Below are positions 141-24,105 of a DNA stretch of 24,105 nucleotides, one piece after another (the first letter of the stretch is position 1; each line of letters begins with the position of its first letter). The position numbers and the translations under genes were made by a program. Under the pieces are notes generated by a model, which worked only from the letters and a program-made list of their open reading frames with translations, was not told the DNA's origin and did no database searches. Origin of the DNA: a virus; the IMG/VR virus record IMGVR_UViG_3300014839_000004, positions 1 to 24,105 of that record; one strand, written 5' to 3'.

Positions 141-158
141 TTGAACTTGGGATAGGGG
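141..158. repeat. Module shared with 1126-1143
   Basis: An 18-base element starting TTGAACTTGGG is found here and at 1126-1143 with about 16 of 18 bases identical. Both copies lie in the gene-free regions flanking the RHH gene, and both have a GTGTG-rich stretch close by. It is one of several modules showing the two regions are related. Confidence 0.7.
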
Positions 159-197
159 CGCAGGGCTTTCCCTTTTCCCTTGCCTCTCTGGTGGTAA

Positions 198-241
198 GTG
201 CGGACTCTGGCGCGCATAAAAGAAGCCGCCAGAGTCCGCAC
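198..241. repeat. 15-bp perfect inverted repeat
   Basis: GTGCGGACTCTGGCG at 198-212 is the exact reverse complement of 227-241, with a 14-base A-rich loop. No T-run follows on either strand, so it is not a standard terminator. It sits in a stretch with several further short hairpins downstream, which suggests a folded RNA or a cruciform DNA site. Confidence 0.85.
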
Positions 242-314
242 CTTGTTTTCCGGCAAGGTCGGCGCAGTTGCGCCTAAAAGCCTGTGCTCCATGCCGACAA
301 AAACGCCGTGATTG

Positions 315-342
315 TAAAGAACATTGAAAGACACGAACACAA
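315..342. repeat. Module shared with 861-888
   Basis: A 28-base element (beginning TAAAGAACATTGAAAGA) recurs at 861-888 with 26 of 28 bases identical by eye. The two copies lie on either side of the RHH gene in the same orientation, supporting an old tandem duplication of the noncoding region. Confidence 0.8.
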
Positions 343-394
343 CTTCATCGTTCCTCATCGTTTCCGCAACTACGCGCACACCTCAATATCAACC

Positions 395-430
395 TTGACA
401 ACAACTTGATTATAGGTGTATATTATAGAT
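395..430 (+). promoter_or_regulatory. Promoter and likely operator of the RHH gene
   Basis: TTGACA at 395-400 and TATATT at 419-424 (18-bp spacer) form a good sigma70-type promoter. CTTGATTATA at 405-414 lies between the boxes and matches exactly one arm of the perfect inverted repeat at 1358-1383. Here the second arm (421-430) is degenerate but keeps the same 6-base spacing. The ribosome site AAGGAGA is at 431-437. The small DNA-binding protein encoded next is the obvious candidate to bind here; that is inference. Confidence 0.75.
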
Positions 431-446
431 AAGGAGATACAAAAAC

Positions 447-641
447 ATGGAAGATCAAGCACCCTACACCGTCAAAAAACAAGGCGGAGCCAGACCAGGC
501 AGTGGAAGGCCAGCATTCCTCAAAGGTGGTAAATATGTCCGCATCTACATTGATACCAAGACCGAAAAAGCACTCAAACAAATCCACCCAAACCGATCCA
601 AAGCCATCCGCATCCTTGCCGGTACTGATCCCCTCGAATAG
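447..641 (+). CDS. Small ribbon-helix-helix-like DNA-binding protein
   Basis: 64 residues. The N-terminal third has the basic Gly/Arg/Pro motif GGARPGSGRP, seen at the start of many small phage and plasmid DNA-binding proteins. It is followed by a pattern fitting a MetJ/Arc ribbon-helix-helix fold: a strand (KYVRIYID), a helix (TEKALKQI) and a second helix (NRSKAIRILA). The start follows AAGGAGA by nine bases. The gene is monocistronic: it has its own promoter and a terminator whose stem contains the stop codon. It probably acts as a dimeric repressor of its own promoter and of the promoter at 1358-1383, which shares its operator-like sequence; that role is inferred. An AT-hook-like accessory protein is the alternative. 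Confidence 0.8.
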   Translation: MEDQAPYTVKKQGGARPGSGRPAFLKGGKYVRIYIDTKTEKALKQIHPNRSKAIRILAGTDPLE

Positions 642-653
642 AGGGGATTTTTG
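628..653 (+). terminator. Rho-independent terminator overlapping the RHH stop codon
   Basis: ATCCCCTC (628-635) pairs perfectly with GAGGGGAT (641-648) around a GAATA loop and runs straight into TTTTT. The stop codon TAG (639-641) lies in the loop and stem, so the RHH mRNA has almost no 3' UTR. Confidence 0.93.
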
Positions 654-667
654 TTGCCAACCACAAA

Positions 668-791
668 CCATACACTTCTGTACAAGCACTTCAGGTATCG
701 TGTGCGCTTTGGATTGCCGCCCGGCAGAACACCGGCGGACAACCAAAGAAAGAACAAGAACACTCGCACACCATACCTTCAGCCAAACACA
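668..791. repeat. Two-block dispersed repeat, copy A (pairs with 23205-23362)
   Basis: Block 1 (668-706) matches 23205-23243 at about 33 of 39 positions. Block 2 (749-791) matches 23320-23362 at about 39 of 43 positions. Orientation and order are the same, but the spacing between blocks differs (42 versus 76 bases). The tail of block 2, TTCAGCCAAACACA, appears again near 23599-23612. High identity outside any reading frame suggests selection on RNA or DNA, or a recent copy of a dispersed host repeat. Confidence 0.8.
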
Positions 792-860
792 GAACGGCAC
801 AGCGGACGTGTGGGAAGCGCACCCACGCGACCGCACTGCCACTTTCACAAAGACCAGCGG

Positions 861-888
861 TAAAGAGCATTGAAAGATACGAACACAA
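861..888. repeat. Module shared with 315-342
   Basis: Second copy of the 28-base element, differing at two transitions. It follows block 2 of the dispersed repeat in this copy of the noncoding region. Confidence 0.8.
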
Positions 889-1125
889 AGACCCGCGTCT
901 GACAACCAATCTGCTACCAGGGTTCCATTTCGGCAGCACTGGATAGGATAGCGCAGGGCGGACGAAAAGCAAGGGCGGAAGAACGCCGTCCCTTCGGGCA
1001 GACCCATTGCTTTTCTCGGAGTACCGCCGCCTATCTGCGCTTATCGTTTTGTTGTGTGCCTCCATTCCACATCCAACTCTGAAAGTAAGAACTAAAAAGC
1101 GGTAACGCAAAGACCGCAAAAGATA

Positions 1126-1143
1126 TTGAACTTGGGTAAGGGG
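1126..1143. repeat. Module shared with 141-158
   Basis: Second copy of the TTGAACTTGGG element; see 141-158. A C-rich stretch follows on the + strand. Confidence 0.65.
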
Positions 1144-1357
1144 GAACTCATTGCAGACCCCCCTTCCCCAAACCCCATCCCCTCGGCTAGTGTGTGGTGT
1201 ATGGTGTGTTCCGACCAACTTTGTCCGGTTTACTGTTCTGCTCCACCCTGGGCGCTCTCTTTCCCCTCCGCCCTATCAGCGGGCGCGCGGACCTGCTGGC
1301 CGCCATCGTCACTTATGGTTTTATATACATATATTCTAATCTAACTCTAACCTTCAT

Positions 1358-1386
1358 CTTGATTATATTGCCTTATAATCAAGTTC
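1358..1386 (+). promoter_or_regulatory. Palindromic promoter/operator of the early operon, probably leaderless
   Basis: CTTGATTATA (1358-1367) and TATAATCAAG (1374-1383) form a perfect 10-bp inverted repeat with a 6-base centre. The right arm contains a consensus -10 box, TATAAT (1374-1379). The next gene starts with ATG at 1387, where transcription would be expected to begin, and no ribosome site is present, so the mRNA is probably leaderless. The -35 region (about 1351-1356) is weak, which would fit control by a bound protein. The left arm recurs exactly at 405-414. Confidence 0.75.
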
Positions 1387-5019: not shown

Positions 5020-5361
5020 TATCGCCATCCCCGACGATGTACGATCGCCCACACCACCAAAAACAACGATGCTGGCCAACATCGCCAGGCATGACTATAC
5101 CGGTAACTATCGCCAGAAACAGCGAGCCAGGGCCTATCACCAGAACCAGCGATGCAGGATCCAATCGCCAGAAATGACGAGCCTCGATGACGCCTTGGCC
5201 AGCACCACCAGAAAAGGCGATACCTGGGCCACCGTCAGAAATAGCGATGCGATATCACCACGCCATAAACGGCGATGCGATCGAAGACACCGCCAGGAAC
5301 AGCGATGCTGCAGCACCGTCAGCCATGACTATGCCGGCACCCTCGCCAGAAATGGCGATAC
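5020..5361. repeat. Array of about 12 degenerate 27-bp tandem repeats
   Basis: Units with the consensus core (T/C)CGCCAGAAACAGCGATG start at about 5021, 5052, 5080, 5108, 5135, 5163, 5203, 5230, 5256, 5288, 5314 and 5341, so the spacing is mostly 26-28 bases. Many units hold a short dyad, for example TCGCC AGAAAT GGCGA at 5343-5358. The unit recurs four times inside the SH3 lipoprotein gene (8952-9055), where it encodes the Thr/Ser/Pro linker, and once at 19828-19857. Here no frame stays open across the array. It may be a decayed linker-coding stretch or a protein-binding iteron array (origin, partition or integrase arm sites). Confidence 0.8.
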
Positions 5362-5390
5362 TTGAGCAACAATATCCAATTCAGATCCGC

Positions 5391-5549: not shown

Positions 5550-5585
5550 TTGACTTATTTCCTAATTTGCGTACAATACGCAAAT
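5550..5585 (+). promoter_or_regulatory. Leaderless promoter with palindromic operator
   Basis: TTGACT (5550-5555) and TACAAT (5572-5577) are separated by 16 bp. ATTTGCGTA (5565-5573) and TACGCAAAT (5577-5585) form a perfect 9-bp inverted repeat centred on the -10 box. The ATG of the next gene begins at 5584, six bases after the -10 box, so the transcript must start at or next to the start codon. A dimeric protein bound to the palindrome would block polymerase directly; the encoded HTH protein is a candidate autorepressor. Confidence 0.85.
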
Positions 5586-5805
5586 GAAAAACAGCGATCC
5601 ACAAGAGTTATCGACAAAGCAAGTCGCTAAAACGCTTCGTTGTTCAGTCCGTACCATCGTAAATCTGTATCAAGCCGGACATTTTCCCCATGCCTACAAA
5701 CTCAACCCCGATGCACGCAATAGCCCGTTACGCATCCCTAAGTCGGACGTGGATAATTACATCACTCACCAACGCTCGACTATGCCAGCCAACAACCGAA
5801 GCTGA
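5584..5805 (+). CDS. Excisionase/AlpA-like helix-turn-helix protein
   Basis: 73 residues. LSTKQVAKTLRCSVRTIVNL (residues 9-28) is a MerR/HTH_17-type helix-turn-helix. It is followed by YQAGHFPHAYKLNP and the wing RIPKSDVDNYI, the usual layout of excisionase and AlpA family proteins that bind DNA near attachment sites or act as small regulators. It lies 640 bp from attP and points toward the convergent integrase, so a role as recombination directionality factor or lysogeny switch fits; that is inferred. Translation starts at 5584 on a leaderless mRNA with an operator-like palindrome over the -10 box. Confidence 0.85.
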   Translation: MKNSDPQELSTKQVAKTLRCSVRTIVNLYQAGHFPHAYKLNPDARNSPLRIPKSDVDNYITHQRSTMPANNRS

Positions 5806-6290: not shown

Positions 6291-7145
6291 TCATTTTGCC
6301 AACCTCCCAACTGGCAAATATTGACGTGTAGCTTCCAATTCCAAATCCCCTATATAGTGGTCAAGCACAGCGTCACTTTTCCATCCACCACCCGCCTTTA
6401 CCACATTCTTCGGCGCACCGGCCAACGTGGTCAGGCTCGCATAAGACCGTCTGAACATATGGGGTGAAATGTGAAAACCCACCTTCTTGCTCCAATGTAG
6501 CATGATAGTTTTCAATCCCTCCCGCGTAAGCGATTGTCCCTTATGCGAATGTTGAAAGCCCACAAACAACGTCTGCACACCAAGCGCGGGTTGTCTCACG
6601 TCAATCCATGCCCTAATAGCATCAGCAGTTTCGGGACTGAAAGTTTTCCAAGCCCACTGCCCGCCCTTGACCAAAGCAAACAGCTTGCATTGACCTAAGT
6701 CCACATTCCCCAACTCCAACCGACATAACTCCGTTGCACGCAAATTGCAATCCAGCGCCACATACACCAACGCCCGATCACGCAAACCCAACACGGTCTG
6801 AATATTGAACATTGCCACCAACTGCATGACCTGTACACCAGTCAGTCGTGGTTGCGGTGACGCAGTAATCCGCTTCACCCGGGCAATCAAGGCCGGATGA
6901 CCCACCCCATACTCCCAACTCAAAAACTTTCGAGAAACGCACAACGCGACATATCGTTGTGAATTCCCCCACTCGGGCCGCTCAACAAACTTTAGCAAGT
7001 CCGCCGCACTCAATTCACCAAGCAAAGGAAGCTCGATCAATTGAAGCAAGACGCGGCGATATGTATCCTTCGTCGTTTCAGCAAACGGGAACGACGCAAG
7101 GAAGTTCATCACTTGCACTTGCAAGTGAACCAACAAATGTATCAT
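6291..7145 (-). CDS. int: Tyrosine recombinase (phage integrase)
   Basis: 284 residues, the normal size for a compact phage integrase. The N-terminal SAM-like core-binding domain covers about residues 10-90 and the catalytic domain about 100-280. Catalytic residues visible are R136 (NLRATEL), K160 in the beta-hairpin (ALVKGGQ), H229 and R232 (PHMFRRSY), W255 in place of the second His (GGGWKSD), and the nucleophile Y264 (LDHYIG). The start at 7145 has GAGGTGA just upstream on minus. The gene faces the HTH gene and ends next to the tRNA-like attP, the standard arrangement for integration into a tRNA 3' end. It would catalyse integration and, with an excisionase, excision. Confidence 0.96.
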   Translation of the reverse strand: MIHLLVHLQVQVMNFLASFPFAETTKDTYRRVLLQLIELPLLGELSAADLLKFVERPEWGNSQRYVALCVSRKFLSWEYGVGHPALIARVKRITASPQPRLTGVQVMQLVAMFNIQTVLGLRDRALVYVALDCNLRATELCRLELGNVDLGQCKLFALVKGGQWAWKTFSPETADAIRAWIDVRQPALGVQTLFVGFQHSHKGQSLTREGLKTIMLHWSKKVGFHISPHMFRRSYASLTTLAGAPKNVVKAGGGWKSDAVLDHYIGDLELEATRQYLPVGRLAK

Positions 7146-7312: not shown

Positions 7313-8110
7313 ATGAACAAACTTTTCAAGTCCATCGGCCTGATTGCTTTTTACATCATGGCAATCGGCCTACTCGTGTACGCTGGAAGTCGCTCACTCG
7401 ACTTCATCCAGTCCACCCTGCCCGACAATCAAAAACTCATCGGCTTTTTAGGCCTGCTTGCCACGGAAGGCGGTGCGATTATCTGGCTTGTCATCTTTTT
7501 GAAGCAAGCCGGTGGCACCCCTCAAAAAACAATCGCCGCCTTGATTGCAGTCGTGGATATGTGCGGCAGTATCGGCCTATTCACCATTGACACACTCTAC
7601 CGCTCAGGCCAGACCGGCCAAATCACCACACTCTCACAAGACGACATCCGCAATGTGATCCTAATGCTCAGCGGATTGATTGGCCTAAATCTGATTGCTG
7701 TTTTCTTCTTCCATATCGTGGAACCTGAAAACATGCGGAAGATGCGGGAAGATGCGGCGAAGGATGCGGTGCAAGATGCACTGCTGAAGCACATCGAAGA
7801 CAATGCCGAAGAAATAACTGTTGAAATGCTACCGGCTCTTTATGCCCAATGGTCTGCTGACTTCAAGAACATGTATTCGGATATTGGAGCCTTTGGCCTC
7901 GGACACTTCCACAACAAACCCATTCCCCCACTTGCCGTTGACCCCGAGCAAGGCTTCGTCAAAAAGGCCGCAGATACAACCACCATCCCCGCCCTATCAA
8001 AGACACCCGATTGGATGGTGAAAGCATTGGCAGAAGCTGGAGCATTTGACCAACGCAAACCAGAAACGGACATGCCCTCCATGGGCGACGACACCTTTCT
8101 TGATGACTGA
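7313..8110 (+). CDS. Four-TM membrane protein of unknown function
   Basis: 265 residues. Four predicted membrane helices lie in the N-terminal half (about 7-24, 41-63, 72-92 and 113-136). A cytoplasmic, charged, helical tail of about 125 residues follows and ends in an acidic stretch (GDDTFLDD). The start at 7313 follows AAGGAGCCTATCAA. An upstream in-frame ATG (7223) would add a basic 30-residue leader and is less likely; a near-copy of the ribosome-site leader (GGAGCCTATCAA) occurs at 7246. It is divergent from the integrase and first in an accessory operon. No family recognised. A superinfection-exclusion or membrane-anchoring role is possible but unproven. Confidence 0.8.
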   Translation: MNKLFKSIGLIAFYIMAIGLLVYAGSRSLDFIQSTLPDNQKLIGFLGLLATEGGAIIWLVIFLKQAGGTPQKTIAALIAVVDMCGSIGLFTIDTLYRSGQTGQITTLSQDDIRNVILMLSGLIGLNLIAVFFFHIVEPENMRKMREDAAKDAVQDALLKHIEDNAEEITVEMLPALYAQWSADFKNMYSDIGAFGLGHFHNKPIPPLAVDPEQGFVKKAADTTTIPALSKTPDWMVKALAEAGAFDQRKPETDMPSMGDDTFLDD

Positions 8111-11077: not shown

Positions 11078-12445
11078 ATGATTAGCAAAAAGCTCTTGTT
11101 TCGAACGCTGTTTGCACTTCTGCTTTTGGCAGGGTTATTAGGGGCTGTCATCGTTCCGTCGCTTGCATCTGTTGGACATATGCCACAATTGGTAAATAAC
11201 CCCAATCCATGTACATCAAGTCTGCAACTGGTCATCAACGAAGTCGGTTGGATGGGAACTTCGTCAACGAATACAGGCGATCAGTGGGTGGAATTCTATA
11301 ATCCAGGTGCCTCTCCACTTAACTTGAGCGGCTGGACATTTACTATTGTGGATACCAGTACGGATATTCCTCTGGATGGGACGAAGACCATCCCTGCTCA
11401 TGGTTATTTTCTGCTTGCGAATATTAAGGATGAGTTTAAAGACGTTACGATTGACCAAGTCGACTCCAATTTGAGTCTCACGCCCGATGGCGAAATTTTG
11501 CAGTTGACCAACTCAGGGTCATTGATTGATCACGCTAATTGGTGGGATGGGTATTGGCCGGCAGGTATTGCATCCAACTCGATTAGAAAGCTTGCTTATT
11601 CCAGCATGGAACGCTATTGTCCTCCTAGCGGAATTATTTCCGCCGATAGTCCATCCGCCTGGGTCACCTTTGCCGGGCCAACCGCGAATACGCCGCTGGA
11701 TCGTAACGGTAACCATGTTCGTGGCACTCCTGGACGCCTGAACTGGGCTTCTCCCCCCGTGACTGAAACGCCTACCCCAATACCACCAACTCCCCGTAAA
11801 CCGACCCCTACCATTGCGCCAACCCCTATCCCTGCTGTTGTGATCAATGAAATACTGCCGCGTCCCGGATCGGATTGGAATGGGGATGGGGAGATCAATA
11901 ACGGGGATGAGTTCATCGAGGTGGAGAACCTGGGGCCGGGTATTGCCACTTTAACGAATTGGACATTACAGGTTAATCCGAATAATGGCAATGGTAGCTA
12001 CACCATCCCCAGCCTGCAATTGCCACCTAATGGGCGGAAGGTCTTTTTCGGATCAAAGACGCAACTCTTACTTAAAGACAGCGGGGAGACCGTGACCCTG
12101 ACGAATACAAGCGGCGTGGTCGAAGATGCTTTTACCTATCCGGCCATACTGCAACCGGATGACTCGTGGTGCCGGATGCGGGATGGTATCGGACCGTGGC
12201 AGGATGGATGTTTCCCGACGCCAGGACTTGAGAATTCGTTGAGCGGGGTTTCACCAAACGCTCCGCCAACTCAACCAGGACAATATCCACCATGCAACCT
12301 GCCGGATACTGCGCCAATTGAGTTTGTCCTTGGGGAATGTTATAGTCCTGGCGGGGGTATCTATAATCCGGATTATTGGAACGGGACTTCGGAACCCTAT
12401 TGGATCCCTGATCCGAACAGCAAGTTTCCAACGCATATTCAATAA
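11078..12445 (+). CDS. Secreted protein with two lamin-tail (LTD) domains
   Basis: 455 residues. A signal or anchor segment lies at residues 5-31 (LLFRTLFALLLLAGLLGAVI). The first LTD-like domain is about 49-200 (LVINEVGWMG, WVEFYNPGASPLNLSGWTF). A Pro/Thr linker (226-253, TPTPIPPTPRKPTPTIAPTP) separates it from the second LTD at about 254-385 (VVINEILPRP, EFIEVENLGPG), which contains an EF-hand-like DWNGDGEINNGDE loop. A Pro/Gly/Tyr-rich tail ends the protein. LTD domains are common in extracellular bacterial proteins and in some nucleases; no nuclease domain is visible here. The start at 11078 follows AGGGGG. It stands alone between the methylase and its own terminator, with host-like codon use, so it looks like an acquired lysogenic-conversion ('moron') gene. 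Confidence 0.85.
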   Translation: MISKKLLFRTLFALLLLAGLLGAVIVPSLASVGHMPQLVNNPNPCTSSLQLVINEVGWMGTSSTNTGDQWVEFYNPGASPLNLSGWTFTIVDTSTDIPLDGTKTIPAHGYFLLANIKDEFKDVTIDQVDSNLSLTPDGEILQLTNSGSLIDHANWWDGYWPAGIASNSIRKLAYSSMERYCPPSGIISADSPSAWVTFAGPTANTPLDRNGNHVRGTPGRLNWASPPVTETPTPIPPTPRKPTPTIAPTPIPAVVINEILPRPGSDWNGDGEINNGDEFIEVENLGPGIATLTNWTLQVNPNNGNGSYTIPSLQLPPNGRKVFFGSKTQLLLKDSGETVTLTNTSGVVEDAFTYPAILQPDDSWCRMRDGIGPWQDGCFPTPGLENSLSGVSPNAPPTQPGQYPPCNLPDTAPIEFVLGECYSPGGGIYNPDYWNGTSEPYWIPDPNSKFPTHIQ

Positions 12446-13485: not shown

Positions 13486-13826
13486 TGCCAGGCAAAAAAG
13501 GCAATAAGAATGCCTCCAAGCACACCATTTATTCAAGCTTCATTGCAGTGGTGGATAGTGACGAACTCGCTGCCATGCCGAAAAACAACTTCGTCAATGA
13601 ACTTGACCTTGCGCGTGCTCAAGTTGTTGTACGCCTTAACAAACGCAATGCCGCGACCGATCCCGATCTCGAAATCAAGTATGACATGGGCGCACGCGCG
13701 TATCTGCAAATGATTATCAACGCCATCATTGAAAACACCACCCACCGAGAGACCGAAACCATGCGCTTCACATCTCTTGCCGAAGCCATGCTCAGTGAAA
13801 ACGATAGGCAAAAATGGAAACGGTAA
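13485..13826 (+). CDS. terS: Putative small terminase subunit
   Basis: 113 residues. The basic N-terminus GKKGNKNASKHTIYSS (residues 3-18) is the signature opening of many small, HTH-containing terminase-small-subunit-like phage proteins. The rest is helical with an acidic/basic C-terminus (SENDRQKWKR). It lies directly before, and overlaps by 13 bases, the large terminase gene. Expected role: recognise phage DNA and hand it to the large subunit. It starts in a TAATG overlap without its own ribosome site. Confidence 0.75.
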   Translation: MPGKKGNKNASKHTIYSSFIAVVDSDELAAMPKNNFVNELDLARAQVVVRLNKRNAATDPDLEIKYDMGARAYLQMIINAIIENTTHRETETMRFTSLAEAMLSENDRQKWKR

Positions 13827-15313
13827 TCACCCGCTCAGCAACAGAACTCCGCCAGGAAAAGGAAGCTGCCCGAAATCTGAAACATTTCGCACAGCATCTT
13901 TTAGGCATCACACTCCGACCCTATCAACTCGAAGCGGGCAACGCCATTATCAAATCCGTTGCCAATCGTGACGGTAAAACCTTCGTGATCATTTTTTCCC
14001 GACAATCCGGCAAGGATGAACTCCTTGCCAACCTGCTCTTATTCCTTTCCATGCGCTTTTACTATTGGGGTGCGGATATGGTCTGTGCTCAACCCACCTT
14101 CAAGCCGCAGACGATCAACGCCATGGAACGATTAAAGAAACGCGGCGTGATCTTTGGACGCAATCTCACACGCACAGCCGGTTACATCATGCGCATGGGT
14201 CAAGCCCGCATCTCGTATTTTTCCGCAGAGCCAGCCGCTAACCAGGTCGGAGCCACCGCCGACCGCCTGCTCATCATGAACGAAGCCCAGGATATTGCCA
14301 TCAGCGTTTACGACAAACGCTTTTCACCCATGGCCGCCAGTGGAAACGCAACCAAAGTTTTCAGCGGCACATCTTGGACATCCGACACACTTCTCTCTCA
14401 AATGGCAAAGATTGCGAAAGAAGAAGAACGCAAATTCGGCGGTAAACAGTTCTTTCTCGTGAACTGTCAAAAGGTTGGTAAGGTCAACGCATGGTATAGA
14501 ACACACGTTCAAAACGAGATCAAACGCATGGGACGCCAGCATCCGTTCATAAAGACGCAATACTTTTGTGAAGAGATTGACGCCCAGGCCGGTATGTTCA
14601 ATGCAGGCCGCCGCGCGCTGATGATTGCTGATCAACCCTCGCAGGAAATGCCAACACCATGGCATTTGTATGCCTTTCTCATTGACGTGGCTGGACAGGA
14701 TGAAGCCGAACTCGACCTTGAAGGCCTCGGTAACCCAGGCCGTGACAGTGAAACGCTCGATATTGTGGACGTTGACCTATCCGCACTCGAAACCATGCTC
14801 AAACCCACGTACCGCGTAATCAAACGCTTCGAATGGACGGGCGAAAAGCACACCACCATATACGGCAAGATAAAAGCTCTTGCCGATATTTGGAAACCAC
14901 AGCACATCGTTATTGACGCCACCGGCGTAGGTGAAGGTCAGTGGTCAATGCTTGACCAGTCGTATCCCACCCAGGTTATTCCCGTCAAATTCACGTCCCA
15001 ATCAAAAAGCGAGATCGGATGGGGATACCTCGCCATCATCGAAACAGGCCGCTTCCATGATTGCGATCCGAACAACACCGTAAACGTTCAATACGACAAG
15101 TGCCAATCCGAAATCCTGCCAGGTCCAACCAAACTCATCCGCTGGGGCGTGAAGGATGGCACACGCGACACGGAAGGCGAACTCGTCCATGATGACTACA
15201 TTCTTGCGGACTCGCTTACCGCCATTCTCGACGATCTCGACTGGCAAATCACCAGTCCCACCCTCATCACCAAACCGATTGACTTCCTTAAGCAGGAAGA
15301 AAGGAATTTCTAA
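13814..15313 (+). CDS. terL: Terminase large subunit
   Basis: 499 residues, normal size. The N-terminal ATPase has the Walker A SRQSGKDE (62-69) and Walker B RLLIMNEAQD (151-160), in which Asn156 sits where Asp is usual, and a coupling-like FSGTSWTSD near 183-191. The C-terminal RNase H-like nuclease has acidic residues at D291 (FLIDVAGQDE), D368 (IVIDATGVGEG) and D460/D461 (HDDYILAD). It drives DNA into the prohead and cuts concatemers. Overlaps the small subunit gene (start) and the portal gene (stop/start), so the three are one translational unit. Confidence 0.93.
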   Translation: METVITRSATELRQEKEAARNLKHFAQHLLGITLRPYQLEAGNAIIKSVANRDGKTFVIIFSRQSGKDELLANLLLFLSMRFYYWGADMVCAQPTFKPQTINAMERLKKRGVIFGRNLTRTAGYIMRMGQARISYFSAEPAANQVGATADRLLIMNEAQDIAISVYDKRFSPMAASGNATKVFSGTSWTSDTLLSQMAKIAKEEERKFGGKQFFLVNCQKVGKVNAWYRTHVQNEIKRMGRQHPFIKTQYFCEEIDAQAGMFNAGRRALMIADQPSQEMPTPWHLYAFLIDVAGQDEAELDLEGLGNPGRDSETLDIVDVDLSALETMLKPTYRVIKRFEWTGEKHTTIYGKIKALADIWKPQHIVIDATGVGEGQWSMLDQSYPTQVIPVKFTSQSKSEIGWGYLAIIETGRFHDCDPNNTVNVQYDKCQSEILPGPTKLIRWGVKDGTRDTEGELVHDDYILADSLTAILDDLDWQITSPTLITKPIDFLKQEERNF

Positions 15314-16698
15314 TGCTCGCCCGCTTCTTCAAATCGCAAATCCAAAAGGAAGTCAAACGTCAGGTCGCTCTAACTGTAACCGAGAACGACAATACCTTTT
15401 ATCCGCAAGACCAAACCGCCAACCGCGACCGAGTTGAAGCCAGTCGCATCGACAATATCAACAACGCTTTACTGGCTTGGCGCGTCAATCCCATTGCCCG
15501 CCGTCTCATCGAATTGACCAATGAATTTGTACTTGGGGCAGATGGTATCCAATGGTCATGCAACCATAAACGCACTGCAAAATTCATTGATGAATTTTGG
15601 AACCATCGGCTCAACCAAATCAACATACAAGCCAGTGATTGGCTCGACGAACTCTCGCGCAGTGGCGATCTCCTTTTCCTGTGTACCGTGGACGATACAG
15701 GTATGGTATTCGTCCGCGCTCTACCAGCCGAACAAATCAAGGACATTCAAACCCGTCCAAATGATTGCCGCCAGGAACTTTCCTACATTCCGTTCGATAC
15801 GGAAACAACACCCTATCCAGCCTACGATCCAATCAGCACCGAACAAAAGCTCTTTGTACTCCACTATGCCATAAATCGCCCAATCGGTTGCTTATGGGGA
15901 GAAAGTGATCTCGGTCACATTCTTAAGTGGATTGGCCATTATTCCGCATGGCTTGAAAACCGCGCCACGCTCAATCGTTTCCGCAATGCCTTTATGTTCA
16001 TTATCAAAGGCAAATTCAAAAACGACCAGGACAAGAAAAAACGCCAGGCCGAACTCAATACCAACCCGCCACAGCCAGGCAGTGTGCTCGTCACCGATGA
16101 GAGCGAAACATGGGACGTGATCAGTCCAAAATTGGAAGCCAACGACGCTTCCAATGACGGCCTCGCACTCAAAAAGCATATTGCATCCGGCGCAGGTATC
16201 CCCATGCACTTCCTTGCCGAACCCGAAGGTTCCACTCGCACCACCGCCGAGTCCGCAGGTACACCCACTTTCCGCCGCTTTGAACAGCGTCAGAAGTTCT
16301 TTCTCTGGATGCTAAATGACCTGCTTGAAACCGTAATCACTGTTCGCAAACGTGTTGATCCCTTGGTCAACCCCAAAGCAACCATTGACTTACGCGGCAA
16401 TGATATCAGCGAACGGGATAACACTTCCCTTGCCCTCGCCGTCACTTACATTGAGCAAGCATTCGGTGATCTCTATGACCGCCATCTCATTAACGAACAG
16501 GAATTCATGCGTATTGTCTATCGCTTCGGCGGTGAAGTCCTTGACAGTGACCAGACCATCCCCCAGGGCATCCGCAAGGACATCAATAAGCCCGCCCCAG
16601 CTGGCACCACCAAAAGCGGCGTGCCACTTCCAAAAGACACAAAACCAAATATCAACAAGGATACTGGCGAGGTTACACCGCCAGGTGAAAACCAATGA
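15313..16698 (+). CDS. Portal protein
   Basis: 461 residues. The N-terminal part, RVEASRIDNINNALLAWRVN with PIARRLIELTNEFVLG, is typical of phage portal proteins. The middle has ARTLNRFRNAFMF-like clip/stem helices, and the C-terminal third has EGSTRTTAESAGTPTFRRFE, a motif found near the crown in many portals. A Pro/Lys-rich disordered tail follows. It forms the dodecameric DNA channel at the capsid vertex. Position between the large terminase and protease-capsid genes is the standard head-gene order. Starts at 15313, overlapping the terminase stop. Confidence 0.88.
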   Translation: MLARFFKSQIQKEVKRQVALTVTENDNTFYPQDQTANRDRVEASRIDNINNALLAWRVNPIARRLIELTNEFVLGADGIQWSCNHKRTAKFIDEFWNHRLNQINIQASDWLDELSRSGDLLFLCTVDDTGMVFVRALPAEQIKDIQTRPNDCRQELSYIPFDTETTPYPAYDPISTEQKLFVLHYAINRPIGCLWGESDLGHILKWIGHYSAWLENRATLNRFRNAFMFIIKGKFKNDQDKKKRQAELNTNPPQPGSVLVTDESETWDVISPKLEANDASNDGLALKKHIASGAGIPMHFLAEPEGSTRTTAESAGTPTFRRFEQRQKFFLWMLNDLLETVITVRKRVDPLVNPKATIDLRGNDISERDNTSLALAVTYIEQAFGDLYDRHLINEQEFMRIVYRFGGEVLDSDQTIPQGIRKDINKPAPAGTTKSGVPLPKDTKPNINKDTGEVTPPGENQ

Positions 16699-16901
16699 AA
16701 TCAAAAACAAGCGCCCTCGACCGGCGATTGAAATATCATGACCCATTTTGCACCTTCCATATACACAGCGGCGACCGTCATTGCTCTTGTGGCAGAGATG
16801 AAGCCATTCAAGAGCTAACCAATTTACGCAATCAAATCAAAAAGGAGACCTATGCCCAACAAGAATTTCACTCTCACTTGCTTGTCAGCCAAAGCCACTG
16901 A
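16695..16901 (+). CDS. Small Cys/His protein between portal and protease
   Basis: 68 residues, starting in an ATGA overlap with the portal gene. HDPFCTFHIHSGDRHCSCGR (residues 15-34) contains Cys-x2-His-x-His and Cys-x-Cys, a probable zinc site. A helix, DEAIQELTNLRNQIKK, follows. Small proteins of this type ('CSCGRDEA...EL..LR') occur in other phage head operons. Its last 50 bases overlap the capsid gene in another frame, including that gene's ribosome site. Confidence 0.65.
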   Translation: MKSKTSALDRRLKYHDPFCTFHIHSGDRHCSCGRDEAIQELTNLRNQIKKETYAQQEFHSHLLVSQSH

Positions 16902-18867
16902 AAACGGCTTTGACGTGATCGCCATCTCAGAAGGCGAAGCCAAAGGCCACGGCATTTCATTCAGTGCCGCCGTACTCAAAGACTCAATCAGTCTATGGGA
17001 TGACTTGCCCTGTTTCCTTGACCACCCCGGACTATTCCAAGGCCAATCCGTCCGAGATTTAGCCGGAGCATTCCACAATCCAATGTGGGATGAAGCCGAA
17101 AAGGGCATTCGTCTGCAACTCATCCCCAATGGCCCCGCAGGCCTTGACTTGACCGCCCTGCGTGACGCGGCCAAGACCGATCAAGCCATCATGAAAGCGA
17201 TTGGCTTCTCGGCAGTCCTGCGCTTGCAATACAAGAGCACCGGAGAAGTAACGAAGATCATCAGTGTTGCATCCTGCGACACTGTTATAGATCCCGCGCG
17301 CGGTGGTAAATTCCTCAGCGCGCAATACCCAAAAGGAGGCACTATGAGCAAGATCAAACCAACCGCCGCGCCCGTCATTGAAAAAGATGACGAAGAACTG
17401 GAAGCCGAAAACCAGACCGCGGCCAGTGACGATCCTAACGTCACTGCACTTCAAAACCTGAGCGGAACGCAGGAACAAATCGCTCAGATGAACAACGATG
17501 CGCTGGCTTCGCGCGCTGTCCTGAAACAGATGTGCGCCAATCTGCTGACTACAGGACTGGCCACATCCAAACTGCCTGCTCCTGCCCAGGCACGTATCCG
17601 CCAAGACTTCGAGGCCAAACTTGAAGCCGGACAATTGTTCGAACCCGTCGAACTTCAAACCCGCATTGACGCCGACCGTAAGATGTTGTCCGAGATTTCT
17701 GCGGCCAGCATCGTTCAGGGACCAGGCCGCAGTCTCACGACTGGCATGTTCAACAGCGAGGATCAAATCCGCGCTGCAGTCGAAGATATGTTCGGTGTGG
17801 AGCGCAGCCATGGTCTCGAAACGGTCAAGGCCGCCCGTCTCTCAGGCATCCGTGAGTTGTACTTCCTACTCACCGGAGACCGCCAATTGCGCGGCGGATA
17901 TTATCCTGATGAAATCTATCTGGCCATTACGACAGACTTCTCAGGCTTGGTTGCCAACGTCATGAATAAGGTCGTTGTTAATCAATGGGATCAATTGGGC
18001 AAAGCCGGTTACGACTGGTGGCAGTCCATTGTCCGAGTTGAGCACTTCGAGAGTTTGAACGACATTACGGGTGTCCTGGTCGGAACGATTGGCACTCTAC
18101 CCACCGTGGCAGAACAAGGCGAATATACCGAGTTGCCCATCGGTGATAGCCCTGAAACGGCATCCTTCGTCAAACGTGGTGGATATATTCCATTGACACT
18201 CGAAATGATCGACCGCGATCAAACCCGCAAGCTGGCTCAGTATCCGAAAGAACTGGCAAACTCCGCACTTCGCACCCTCTCAGCCAAAATCGCCGCCGTG
18301 TTCACAGACAACAGCTCCGTTGGCCCCACCATGGCCGATGGTGGCGCATTGTTCAATAATACGGTCGTCACCACCAAAGGCGGACATGCCAACCTATTGA
18401 CCACAGCTTTGACTGCGGCACAATGGGATACCGTGGCCGCCGCCATGTACAACCAACCCATGCTTATCCGTAATGACACCAGTTATTACGGAACGGGTCC
18501 GAAGATGGCACTCGAGCCTCGCTATTGCTTGGTTCCGCGTGCCTTGCGCAAGACAGCCTTTGACGCTTTCTTGAATGCCTGGGATGTAACCAGCGGCGTT
18601 CATTCCGAAAACCTGCTCAAAGGTTTAGTCGTTCCCCTGGTCGTACCCGACTGGACTGATACCAATGATTGGGCAGCCGTTTGTGATCCTGCCATTGCAC
18701 CATCCATCATCGTTGGCGAACGCTTTGGCGTCAAGCCTGAAATCTTTGTAGCCGGTCGCGAGACCGATGCAGCCGTGTTCATGAACGATGAGCACCGGAT
18801 CAAAGTCCGTGACTTCAAGGCCATCTTGGTTCAGGACTTCCGACCGTTGCACAAAGAAAACGTGTAA
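16852..18867 (+). CDS. Prohead protease - scaffold - major capsid protein fusion
   Basis: 671 residues. The N-terminal domain (about 1-160) matches HK97-type prohead proteases (peptidase U35): His58 in FLDHPG, Ser120 in AIGFSA, and VASCDTVIDPARGG (139-152) at the domain end. A charged helical stretch follows (about 165-290), suited to a scaffold (delta) domain. A HK97-fold capsid protein then runs from about 300 to 671, with N-arm/E-loop-like EQGEYTELPIGDSPETASFV and a C-terminal domain ending ILVQDFRPLHKENV. In most phages protease and capsid are separate genes; here they are one frame, with an internal ribosome site at 17331-17346 that could also give a protease-free 507-residue capsid precursor. 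Starts at 16852 after AAGGAG. Confidence 0.9.
   Translation: MPNKNFTLTCLSAKATENGFDVIAISEGEAKGHGISFSAAVLKDSISLWDDLPCFLDHPGLFQGQSVRDLAGAFHNPMWDEAEKGIRLQLIPNGPAGLDLTALRDAAKTDQAIMKAIGFSAVLRLQYKSTGEVTKIISVASCDTVIDPARGGKFLSAQYPKGGTMSKIKPTAAPVIEKDDEELEAENQTAASDDPNVTALQNLSGTQEQIAQMNNDALASRAVLKQMCANLLTTGLATSKLPAPAQARIRQDFEAKLEAGQLFEPVELQTRIDADRKMLSEISAASIVQGPGRSLTTGMFNSEDQIRAAVEDMFGVERSHGLETVKAARLSGIRELYFLLTGDRQLRGGYYPDEIYLAITTDFSGLVANVMNKVVVNQWDQLGKAGYDWWQSIVRVEHFESLNDITGVLVGTIGTLPTVAEQGEYTELPIGDSPETASFVKRGGYIPLTLEMIDRDQTRKLAQYPKELANSALRTLSAKIAAVFTDNSSVGPTMADGGALFNNTVVTTKGGHANLLTTALTAAQWDTVAAAMYNQPMLIRNDTSYYGTGPKMALEPRYCLVPRALRKTAFDAFLNAWDVTSGVHSENLLKGLVVPLVVPDWTDTNDWAAVCDPAIAPSIIVGERFGVKPEIFVAGRETDAAVFMNDEHRIKVRDFKAILVQDFRPLHKENV
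17331..17346 (+). promoter_or_regulatory. Internal ribosome binding site and in-frame start in the capsid gene
   Basis: AAAAGGAGG (17331-17339) lies four bases before an in-frame ATG at 17344, codon 165 of the fusion and exactly at the boundary between the protease and scaffold domains. The encoded start MSKIKPTAAPVIEKDD looks like a natural N-terminus. The site implies a shorter product made in larger amount than the full fusion. Confidence 0.8.
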
Positions 18868-20886: not shown

Positions 20887-21884
20887 TGCGCTCAATCAAC
20901 GCCACACTCAAAGCGGCGATGACATCAGCCGCAGGCATTCCCACGTTTCGCTTTTACCAACAGTCCACCGGCGGCGCGGATCAACATATCTACAACACTA
21001 TCGTAGGCTATGAAATCCAAGGCCTTGAAATGCACGTCAAAGTCCTTGCCACCGATTTTGTAAATCCAACAGCTTTCACTGGCTTCCTCACACGCGGCCT
21101 AAAGATCAACGGTGTTGAGTATCTCCTACCCACAAACTATTATGCCATCATGGATATCCAACTCGATGACAAATTCGCCATCTTCCACTGCAATATCCTA
21201 AATGGCAACAAGATCAACCAGGCCGCCGATGTTGCCGCCTATGTTTTACTCAACAACATCAGATCCTCACACTTTCAAAACCTTCAACCCGTTTATGCCG
21301 CTGACTATACCGAAGGCTGGCCGCTATACCAATTCGCTTCTACCGGCTCCGTGCTTACACTCGGAAATAATCAAATGCTGGTCGGACTTCTTAAACAAAA
21401 GTACGCCACTTACATCTCCGCACACAATGATGTCAGTGGCAGCACGTCCACACAAGAGATCAAGCTTATCTCCACTCACTGGCGCGCCTACAATCTCGCC
21501 ATCCACAGCAATCCATCAGCGAAGAACATCACCTCACTTGTGAATCTCGCTTTAATCCAGAATGTCCCCTACAAACAGTCCTGGATTTGGACAGATGAAA
21601 CCCTCGCCAAACACCGCACCAATGGCACGAATTACCACATCCACAATCTCGGCTTCATGCCCTCGACCGCCACATGGCCGTCCTACACCAGCATGCCCGC
21701 AACCCTCAATCAATTCAAGTTCCTGATTTATCCCGACTTCGAGCTTCTAGACGGAGACAATCTCAATATCACCATGTGTGGCCAGACGTTCAAGAGCATG
21801 GTCAAAATCGCCGAACGCTTCAACTGGCAAGCCAATCAAAAAATCCCTTGGCATATGGAAGTGAGCCAAATCGATGTTACCTAA
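20886..21884 (+). CDS. Putative tail or virion-surface protein
   Basis: 332 residues, no membrane segment or signal peptide. Mixed alpha/beta, rich in Asn, Thr and aromatics (for example HNLGFMPSTATWPSYTSMPA). The C-terminal 60 residues are strand-rich. It lies between the adaptor-like gene and the tail-fibre gene, so it may be a tail hub, nozzle or fibre base. No family recognised. Coupled to the upstream gene (TAATG) and overlapping the next by 11 bases. Confidence 0.7.
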   Translation: MRSINATLKAAMTSAAGIPTFRFYQQSTGGADQHIYNTIVGYEIQGLEMHVKVLATDFVNPTAFTGFLTRGLKINGVEYLLPTNYYAIMDIQLDDKFAIFHCNILNGNKINQAADVAAYVLLNNIRSSHFQNLQPVYAADYTEGWPLYQFASTGSVLTLGNNQMLVGLLKQKYATYISAHNDVSGSTSTQEIKLISTHWRAYNLAIHSNPSAKNITSLVNLALIQNVPYKQSWIWTDETLAKHRTNGTNYHIHNLGFMPSTATWPSYTSMPATLNQFKFLIYPDFELLDGDNLNITMCGQTFKSMVKIAERFNWQANQKIPWHMEVSQIDVT

Positions 21885-22881
21885 CGATAATCACGACAGC
21901 AATCATCTCGAGCTTGACACCACCAACTTTCAAACCTTGCTGAGCAGTGATGACAACAACCTTCAGCAAGCACTCGATGACCTGGATAAACACACTCACA
22001 CAGGCGGCGGCGGGACGTGGGGCTCAATAACCGGAACTCTCGCCAGTCAAACCGATCTTCAAGCCGCACTCGATGCACTCACAGCCGCAATTGCCGCCAA
22101 ACAAAACGCCCTGGGCTTCACGCCACGCACTACACTGGCAGCCGATGCGAATTATTATGTCCGCACCGATGGCAACGATTCGCACGATGGTTCAGCCAAT
22201 GATGCAACACACGCGTTCCTTACCATTCAAAAAGCGATCAACGTCGTCTATGGCACGTTGGATTTAAACGGCCACAACGTGACCATCCATGTGGCAGACG
22301 GAAGCTATGGAGCTGTCAGCGTCACTTCGCCCCAGGTCGGAGCAGGCACAATTCAATTGACCGGCAACACCACCACCCCTGCCAATTGCGTGATCAGTGC
22401 CGCACCAGGCGTCTACGTGAACAATTACGCCATCCTAAATCTCGGAGGCTTCAAGGTACTATCCACCTCAGCCGGTATATCTGCCAGCGGAGGCGCTATC
22501 ATCAATATCAACGGACTCATGGAATACGGCACCTGCTCAACAATGCACATCATCGCACTCGCAGGCGCGCAAATCTACATCACCGCCAACTATAAGATCA
22601 GTGGTGCATCGAATAACCATCTCTACTCCGGCACCGGTGGATTGATTGAATACAACACTCTCACCATCACGATCACTGGAACACCGGCATTCAGCACCGC
22701 TTTCGCCGCCGTCGACTCAACCGGCATGATCCGAAATTGGAGCTGCACCTTCAGCGGAGCCGCCACAGGCAAACGCTACTCCGCCTCCCTCAATGGAGTG
22801 ATCAACACCTTCGGCGGAGGCGCTACCTACTTCCCCGGCAATGCAGCCGGCACCACACCAACAGGCGGACAATACGCATAA
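21874..22881 (+). CDS. Tail fibre / receptor-binding protein with beta-helix
   Basis: 335 residues. Residues about 40-80 contain THTGGGGTWGSITGTLASQT and DLQAALDALTAAIAAKQNAL, a linker pattern shared by many phage fibres. From about 90 to 310 comes a right-handed, pectin-lyase-like beta-helix (YYVRTDGNDSHDGSANDATH, FLTIQKAINVV, repeated N/G-rich strands). The C-terminus FPGNAAGTTPTGGQYA is a recurrent fibre ending. It would bind the host surface, perhaps a polysaccharide; catalytic residues are not identified. It is the last structural gene, followed by the noncoding region. Confidence 0.85.
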   Translation: MLPNDNHDSNHLELDTTNFQTLLSSDDNNLQQALDDLDKHTHTGGGGTWGSITGTLASQTDLQAALDALTAAIAAKQNALGFTPRTTLAADANYYVRTDGNDSHDGSANDATHAFLTIQKAINVVYGTLDLNGHNVTIHVADGSYGAVSVTSPQVGAGTIQLTGNTTTPANCVISAAPGVYVNNYAILNLGGFKVLSTSAGISASGGAIININGLMEYGTCSTMHIIALAGAQIYITANYKISGASNNHLYSGTGGLIEYNTLTITITGTPAFSTAFAAVDSTGMIRNWSCTFSGAATGKRYSASLNGVINTFGGGATYFPGNAAGTTPTGGQYA

Positions 22882-23204
22882 ACATTCCCCCCAAAGAACC
22901 ACCCTGAAAGCTCCTACCGCGTCGCAAGCTCTGACAACTTTTACTGGCTGTTCCCTTCGGGGTCGCGGTCGCAAGCTCTGGACAAAAGCACCAACGGCCA
23001 CGGAAGAACACCGTCACAAGCCGCCCTTTCGTGTGCCGGAAAAGACCCGCACACTAGTTCTCGATCACCCAACCCGATAACTGATCAATCGCCCTTCTGC
23101 CGCCAATCCTTTTCCCATCTTGTCTGCTCCCAGGGTCGGACAGCTTCGCCAACTCTGATAAGGCCTTTCCCGCACGGCGGGACACAATAAAGTTTCTGAA
23201 AGTG

Positions 23205-23362
23205 CCATACACTTCTGTAAGAGCACTTCGGGCGGCGTGTGCGGTTCGTTCCGTGCTGTACAGGCGGGACACTGGCACACAGAACGTAAACGCCAGCCGC
23301 CGTACATCCCTTCACTCACAAAGAACAAGAACACACGCACACCACGCCCTCAGCCAAACACA
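23205..23362. repeat. Two-block dispersed repeat, copy B
   Basis: Blocks 23205-23243 and 23320-23362 match 668-706 and 749-791 in order and orientation (about 33/39 and 39/43 identical). In this copy block 1 is enclosed by a hairpin (AAGTGC...GCACTT) that copy A lacks. Confidence 0.8.
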
Positions 23363-23733
23363 CAAACAAGTACACCGCCTTGTGACTCCGCCAAACGCTT
23401 CGCGGCGGAGCACATAGCGGCATTCTCTGAAAGTGCACAGAACAAGAGCACTTCACACAGAGCGTGACCCATTCCTTCCGCCTCCACTCGCTCATAAACG
23501 TTCCACTTAGCTACGTTCGACGTACACTCACTCCGCGCCGTTCCACATCTCGCTCCTTCCGCCTCCCTCCTGGGTAGATCAAGCACCACGCACTGTGTTC
23601 AGCCAAACACAAGAACGCCGTCAGGCTTCGGATTACCTCAGCCGCACGGCACGATCAAGAACAATGCGGGCGCTCCCGTCGCCCCGCACCCCGCCGCTGG
23701 GCGGCCATCGGCCTCCCCGTCCCACCTCCCCTC

Positions 23734-23819
23734 GTGCTGACGCCGCGTCCGGTAAGGGTCATTGGTCGGACGGTGCGAGTACGCCCGCCGCCCCCTGCCC
23801 CTCCATGCGGCGTCAGCAC
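23734..23819. repeat. 13-bp inverted repeat enclosing nested hairpins
   Basis: GTGCTGACGCCGC (23734-23746) is perfectly complementary to 23807-23819, with two further inner pairs possible (G-U, U-A). The 60-base interior contains GTCCG/CGGAC (23747-23751, 23767-23771) and GCG-AGTA-CGC (about 23774-23783), so it could fold as a multi-branched RNA junction. No T-run follows; not a terminator. Confidence 0.8.
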
Positions 23820-24105
23820 ATCGGCCAAGAACAACTATATCCATCTCAAACGCAATCAAGATCAAAACCAAGAACGCTCATGCTGTCAGGGCGGACGCTT
23901 CGCGCGCTCAGCGTCACGGGAAGAACGCCCTCGCCCTTCCACATTCGCACGTACACAGATCGGCTTCGACGATGCGGACAGTACACCGCTCGCTCAGCCA
24001 CGAACGCCCACGGCGACGGCACTCCGCACAGACGCCCCGCTCCCCTCCCAAACCCAACCCCTCACCCTACGGCCATGCGCCCCGCACCCAACCACCGCGG
24101 GCGGC

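Follow-up and report, generated by a model that had tools for sequence, protein, structure and literature searches.

A repeated, probably folded noncoding element in a phage cargo locus as a candidate structured-RNA family

Phage morons are promoter-gene-terminator units, and structured flanking repeats lie outside their usual description. Repeats of the REP/BIME and MITE types are intergenic, hairpin-forming and present in several copies. The locus described here, in a window comprising the whole 24,105-bp stretch of a virus record, combines traits of both. Like a moron, a gene at 447-641 has its own sigma-70-like promoter and terminator-like hairpin and is associated with a noncoding region after the tail gene, but it is flanked by structured repeats. 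These repeats resemble REP/BIME and MITE-type sequences in being intergenic, hairpin-forming and multi-copy; however, they are confined to one locus and one orientation, their linkers are more conserved than their stems and they are not dispersed across the genomes searched.

Two further systems offer partial parallels. GOLLD, ROOL and OLE (PMC12286853) are likewise long noncoding structured stretches, partly phage-borne, with helices and conserved single-stranded parts; here, by contrast, short repeated elements take the place of one large fold, the region has no match in Rfam (release 15) at E up to 1, and transcription is putative. Integron attC sites carry an inverse core RYYYAAC and a core GTTRRRY at the ends of a palindrome (PMC3053210). 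They share with our element a conserved pairing of free sequence, an unpaired stem position, a variable terminal part and adjacent exchangeable genes, but the RYYYAAC/GTTRRRY core pair as defined there is absent from all three copies of the element, and there is no pairing between the element's conserved flanks.

The phage genome and the locus behind its tail gene

The first and last 123 bp of the record are identical, and hence the virus genome is a circular unit of 23,982 bp. Gene family searches identified several phage genes in the window, including those listed here with the noncoding regions under study:

6291-7145, - strand: tyrosine recombinase
13814-15313: terminase
15313-16698: portal
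16852-18867: capsid protein
21874-22881: tail gene
22882-24105, on through the circle junction, and 124-446, + strand: left noncoding region, directly behind the tail gene, the cargo locus in relatives
642-1386: right noncoding region

Further phage genes are encoded besides these, and neither a polymerase nor a helicase of the phage could be recognised in the window proteins scanned. The recombinase, situated ~6-7 kb from the array of repeats, gave only generic Xer and phage-integrase model matches, all far below cut-off, including the best of them (NF040815, tyrosine recombinase/integron integrase). Two other features of the genome may be recorded. A long ORF with a Lamin Tail Domain (LTD) lies upstream of the packaging genes (11084-12445). 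At 5020-5365, upstream of a gene for an HTH (excisionase-like) protein (5584-5805), short hairpins of the type TCGCC-AGAAAY-GGCGA form a second array, with at least 8 copies at spacings of ~27-30 nt and more; similar hairpins occur elsewhere in the phage (8955-8998) and once in a relative (L005, ~7761-7785).

The nearest relatives found are an 18,280-bp IMG/VR contig (G001/L005), whose terminase is 83% identical, and a contig (L006) of an Anaerolineae MAG (genome G002). Since these include a phage contig in an Anaerolineae MAG, the host is probably an Anaerolineae bacterium. GenBank phages contained no DNA similar to the left noncoding region of the window. G001 is colinear with the window up to the end of the tail gene. 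Right behind it, at 10977-17888 of L005, follow AbiH, GajB and GajA (Gabija), and then a type II methyltransferase accompanied by an MvaI/BcnI-type restriction endonuclease, in a stretch that fits the contig either as all phage or as partly flanking chromosome. Between the Gabija group and the restriction-modification group, the final 45 nt of the tail gene occur a second time (15808-15852). On a chromosomal contig of G002 (C155), two copies of the tail-gene end, 92-96% identical to those of the relative, bracket one uncharacterised gene and precede another. Given the defence genes and the tail-gene-end repeats in relative and chromosome, the locus looks like a cargo hotspot with contents shared with the chromosome. 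The relative carries other cargo after its tail gene, and its contig stops too early for a counterpart of 447-641 to be located reliably. In the window, the 64-aa gene 447-641 appears to be the cargo of this locus.

As separate observations on these borders, the last 45-55 nt of the tail gene form direct repeats bracketing cargo both in L005 (10902-10946 and 15808-15852) and in L036 (11681-11726 and 12369-12423), with nearly fixed left borders, as a possible attachment or cassette site. L005 also contains two similar noncoding stretches around CGCAGAGTAARCCCG (~11929-11965 and 15690-15755), possibly another intergenic repeat. Moreover, GGGGTCGCGGTCGCAAGCTC(T/C) or a close variant is common to the phage noncoding region (22958-22978), the relative's cargo region (L005 17895-17915) and a host contig (L038 471-506).

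The 64-aa gene and its surroundings comprise the following:

395-424, + strand: promoter-like TTGACA-18-TATATT, 11/12 consensus, with CTTGATTATA (405-414) in the spacer
447-641, + strand: 64-aa gene without a family match
627-649, + strand: terminator-like hairpin, which overlaps the 64-aa gene's stop codon, then T-rich TTTGTT
1358-1383, no strand assigned: palindrome CTTGATTATA-TTGCCT-TATAATCAAG, just before the gene 1387-2001, candidate operator shared with 405-414

We accordingly describe 447-641 as a predicted autonomous promoter-gene-terminator unit; its own promoter and terminator within a phage genome, both of them consensus matches only, are what defines a moron. Its protein, which the sequence-only reading took for a ribbon-helix-helix (RHH) regulator, matches nothing in Pfam, PHROGs, NCBIfam or the PDB sequences; a low-confidence model (pLDDT 60), in which a helix comes after a strand, is only compatible with that fold, so the name is a guess. 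The same reading had pointed to a sequence at which both noncoding regions end, and this is real: CTTGATTATA has three exact copies in the genome (405-414 on the + strand, 1358-1367 on the + strand and 1374-1383 on the - strand), all of them at the starts of the genes 447-641 and 1387-2001. Tolerating one mismatch brings the number of matches to 5, whereas the shuffles average 0.89 and none contains as many as 5. As it occurs only in the promoter spacer of 447-641 and in the palindrome before the next gene, it is a likely candidate for an operator common to both promoters. The protein of 1387-2001 has sub-threshold DprA-like matches only and a poor fold prediction (pLDDT 48).

Three copies of an element with a compensated stem

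The sequence-only reading had placed the 64-aa gene between two diverged copies of a noncoding unit of 0.7-1.5 kb sharing four modules. We compared the left and right regions using 200 dinucleotide-preserving shuffles to set the chance level (best score 27.4 bits). Three of the modules exceed every shuffle, and these blocks have an identical order in both regions, but the fourth (141-158/1126-1143) scores 24.7 bits and is at chance level; consequently, the supposed swap of the last two modules falls away. Between the blocks, the only other similarity above the shuffles is a weaker 20-nt piece (23598-23617/778-796, 29.2 bits). No long unit is duplicated: common to both regions are only one 29-nt block and the true repeat, an element of 134-186 nt present in three differing copies, all on the + strand. 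Two of these, L1 and R, correspond to the copies first seen, and the third, L2, had been missed; the weaker 20-nt piece is its 3' end. The copies, their parts and the shared blocks are:

23199-23366, + strand: copy L1, with 5' flank AAAGTGCCATACACTTCTGTAAGAGCACTTC, stem P1, inner hairpin domain, linker and 3' flank TCAGCCAAACACA
23230-23243, + strand: 5' arm of stem P1 of L1, GGGCGGCGTGTGCG, pairing with CGCACACCACGCCC at 23336-23349, 12/14 positions paired
23205-23246 and 668-709: shared block, 45.5 bits, 83% over 42 nt
23320-23365, + strand, and 749-794: shared block, 61.7 bits, 89% identity over 46 nt; in L1 the A-rich linker AAAGAACAAGAACAC, the 3' arm of P1 and the 3' flank
23430-23615, + strand: copy L2, with P1 formed by ACACAG-A-GCGTG / CACGC-A-CTGTGT, the same flanks, linker GATCAAGCAC and a long inner domain
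662-795, + strand: copy R, with P1 at 693-706 / 765-778 and inner hairpin CTTTGGaTTGCCGCC/GGCGGaCAACCAAAG
314-342, + strand: 29-nt block GTAAAGAACATTGAAAGACACGAACACAA, 44.6 bits and 93% identity over 29 nt to 860-888
860-888, + strand: second copy of the 29-nt block
198-241, no strand assigned: separate strong hairpin, a perfect 15-bp inverted repeat with a 14-nt loop

L2 was detected within the window by a covariance model built from L1 and R (E 8e-5), and a refined model (R2) found no fourth copy. L2 and R bracket the 64-aa gene, R beginning ~12-20 nt downstream of its terminator. Altogether ~2.3 kb of noncoding DNA is retained in this 24-kb genome. It is strand-oriented: across the two regions, the + strand has 14 occurrences of the linker motif AAGAAC and the - strand has 0 (shuffle mean 0.76, maximum 3). 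ARAGORN found no tRNA or tmRNA. The mean folding z over the noncoding region as a whole is near that of coding DNA, the hairpins being local.

Each copy comprises an outer stem of 11-13 pairs with a 1x1 mismatch at the same place, conserved flanks and linker, a stem of variable sequence and a variable inner domain. The conserved linkers and flanks are AGCACTTC, which precedes P1 in L1 and R, GAACAAGARCAC and TCAGCCAAACACA; the inner hairpins of L1 and R are unrelated, each copy having its own. Between L1 and R the 5' arm of the stem differs at 4 positions and the 3' arm at 3, yet 3 pairs changed on both sides are still Watson-Crick, a fourth goes from mismatch to pair, and the C.C mismatch stays in place. 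In the alignment of the three copies, all from one genome and with the pairing of L2 not fully independent because its search model already held the stem (the 20-nt flank match at 29 bits is separate), 97.3% of the cells pair, and both-sided change affects 7 of 13 pairs with not one changed on a single side. When the helix is shifted by 1-3 columns as a control, only 0-2 such pairs are left. Pairing this good is obtained by random placement of the same substitution numbers with P ~8e-4 for R versus L1 and P ~4e-4 for L2 versus R. The stem arms are identical between copies at only 3-5 of 12 letters, compared with 13-14 of 15 for the 3' flank and 8-10 of 10 for the 5' flank AGCACTTC. The minimum-energy structures of L1, R and L2 each contain P1.

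The helix is thus kept through compensatory changes across three copies in one genome, which is what marks a structured RNA element. With 7 of the 13 pairs compensatory and none changed one-sidedly, the fold is probably maintained, and since it is kept while the stem sequence varies, the element is probably functional and under selection. Every changed pair is of the Watson-Crick type and no G-U step is seen, a pattern as compatible with DNA as with RNA. Conserved unpaired linkers combined with freely changing stems have the look of either a folded RNA or a folded DNA strand.

Occurrence in other genomes

Three scans were made: a pattern search of 396 class genomes, a DNA search of 400 genomes from the order and a covariance-model search of 396 class genomes. 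No complete homologue was found among Anaerolineae genomes, IMG/VR (by patterns) or GenBank phages, and clearly related sequence is present in only one of the 396-400 class or order genomes, namely G002, the MAG that also holds the contig of the nearest phage relative. Its contig C201 matches 36 nt of the window (23190-23225) at 100%. The element is represented there by its 5' part alone, in two copies 247 nt apart, and the gene downstream of them encodes TIR and pentapeptide-repeat domains. Contig C155 contains a weaker piece of 34 nt at 85%. Isolated one-mismatch pattern matches in three other genomes and a 22-nt DNA match in an apparent coding sequence of one genome are as expected by chance. 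A family search added one weak 26-nt match in another genome (G320), and a genus search gave no match to the element.

Several candidates were set aside. Matches at C136, C40 and C268 of G002 and in G063 and G081 lie in apparent coding sequence and were attributed to chance, as were, from the sequence around the sites, the four unrelated IMG/VR contigs retrieved with a degenerate 5' pattern; two other element patterns gave no IMG/VR match besides the window, and a gapped one gave none. On the 396-400 genomes searched, the possibility that these are ordinary host repeats present in hundreds of loci is dismissed, as is a repeat dispersed across host genomes, with partial copies in G002 only. As far as can be seen, the element is confined to this phage lineage and to the genome containing its relative.

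What the element may be

The best explanation, to which we give a probability of roughly 40%, is that the element represents a new candidate structured-RNA family in a phage cargo (moron) locus. It would work as RNA, since transcription running through the tail gene and the 64-aa gene would also cover the copies, which come after these genes on the coding strand. In each copy, an outer stem of free sequence would enclose a variable inner hairpin domain and be accompanied by conserved single-stranded linkers, with P1 paired and AAGAACAAGAACAC unpaired in the proposed transcript. Recognition may rest on the linkers AGCACTTC, GAACAAGARCAC and TCAGCCAAACACA, with the inner domain providing the variation. 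We infer RNA rather than DNA as the acting form, along with any target or partner protein; RNA is favoured on two grounds: conservation falls on unpaired linkers that are strand-oriented, and the copies follow genes on the coding strand. Against this, the region as a whole has an unremarkable mean folding z, and R sits behind a terminator-like hairpin, so that its transcription would need read-through or another promoter.

Copies that mark the borders of exchangeable cargo might instead act as DNA, as recombination or landing sites folding as single strands like attC, with the 64-aa gene as a captured cassette. The bracketing of a promoter-gene-terminator unit by L2 and R, the cargo hotspot at the same locus in the relative and the presence of the element's 5' part next to a TIR gene in a host chromosome all suit such sites, as do the 45-55-nt tail-gene-end repeats with nearly fixed left borders that bracket cargo in the relative and the chromosome, and the encoded tyrosine recombinase, whose action here is putative. 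However, no copy of the element is found at the cargo borders of the relative, and the attC core pair is missing; we regard this possibility as somewhat unlikely. A passive REP- or MITE-like hairpin repeat, selfish or neutral, could also keep its arms complementary by template switching (quasipalindrome correction). Compensation by Watson-Crick pairs without one-sided steps is what arm-to-arm correction would yield, the host genome has fragmentary copies, and the phage contains another hairpin-repeat array (5020-5365). Yet such correction leaves unexplained why conservation is highest in the unpaired linkers and flanks; moreover, a repeat found beyond the phage in 1 of ~400 genomes, by its 5' part only, is hardly dispersed, and a 24-kb genome retains ~2.3 kb of noncoding sequence. 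We therefore hold a passive repeat to be unlikely.

The sequence-only reading had offered a long structured RNA, an origin or a regulatory leader; the structured element is supported, whereas the origin is not. A replication origin or partition site regulated by the 64-aa protein would accord with a noncoding, repeated, hairpin-rich region beside a small putative DNA-binding protein and with the lack of a recognised polymerase or helicase among the scanned proteins. There is, however, no DnaA-type box anywhere in the window, no GC-skew sign change at the region and no short iteron array in it, making this very improbable. It is also conceivable, if distinctly doubtful, that the element belongs to an undescribed class, in which a phage-borne folded RNA or single-stranded DNA hairpin, its conserved linkers flanking a stem of free sequence and a variable inner domain, would organise or mark the cargo locus behind the tail gene and be exchanged with chromosomal defence loci of the host.

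Returning to the preferred structured-RNA reading, the element is a folded sequence supported by compensation, with no relative in Rfam, from viruses of a bacterial class about which little is known. In a related phage, the same place is taken by Gabija, AbiH and restriction-modification genes. Acting as RNA, it would constitute a new family of phage RNAs; as a recombination hairpin, it would help to account for the swapping of defence genes between such phages and their hosts.
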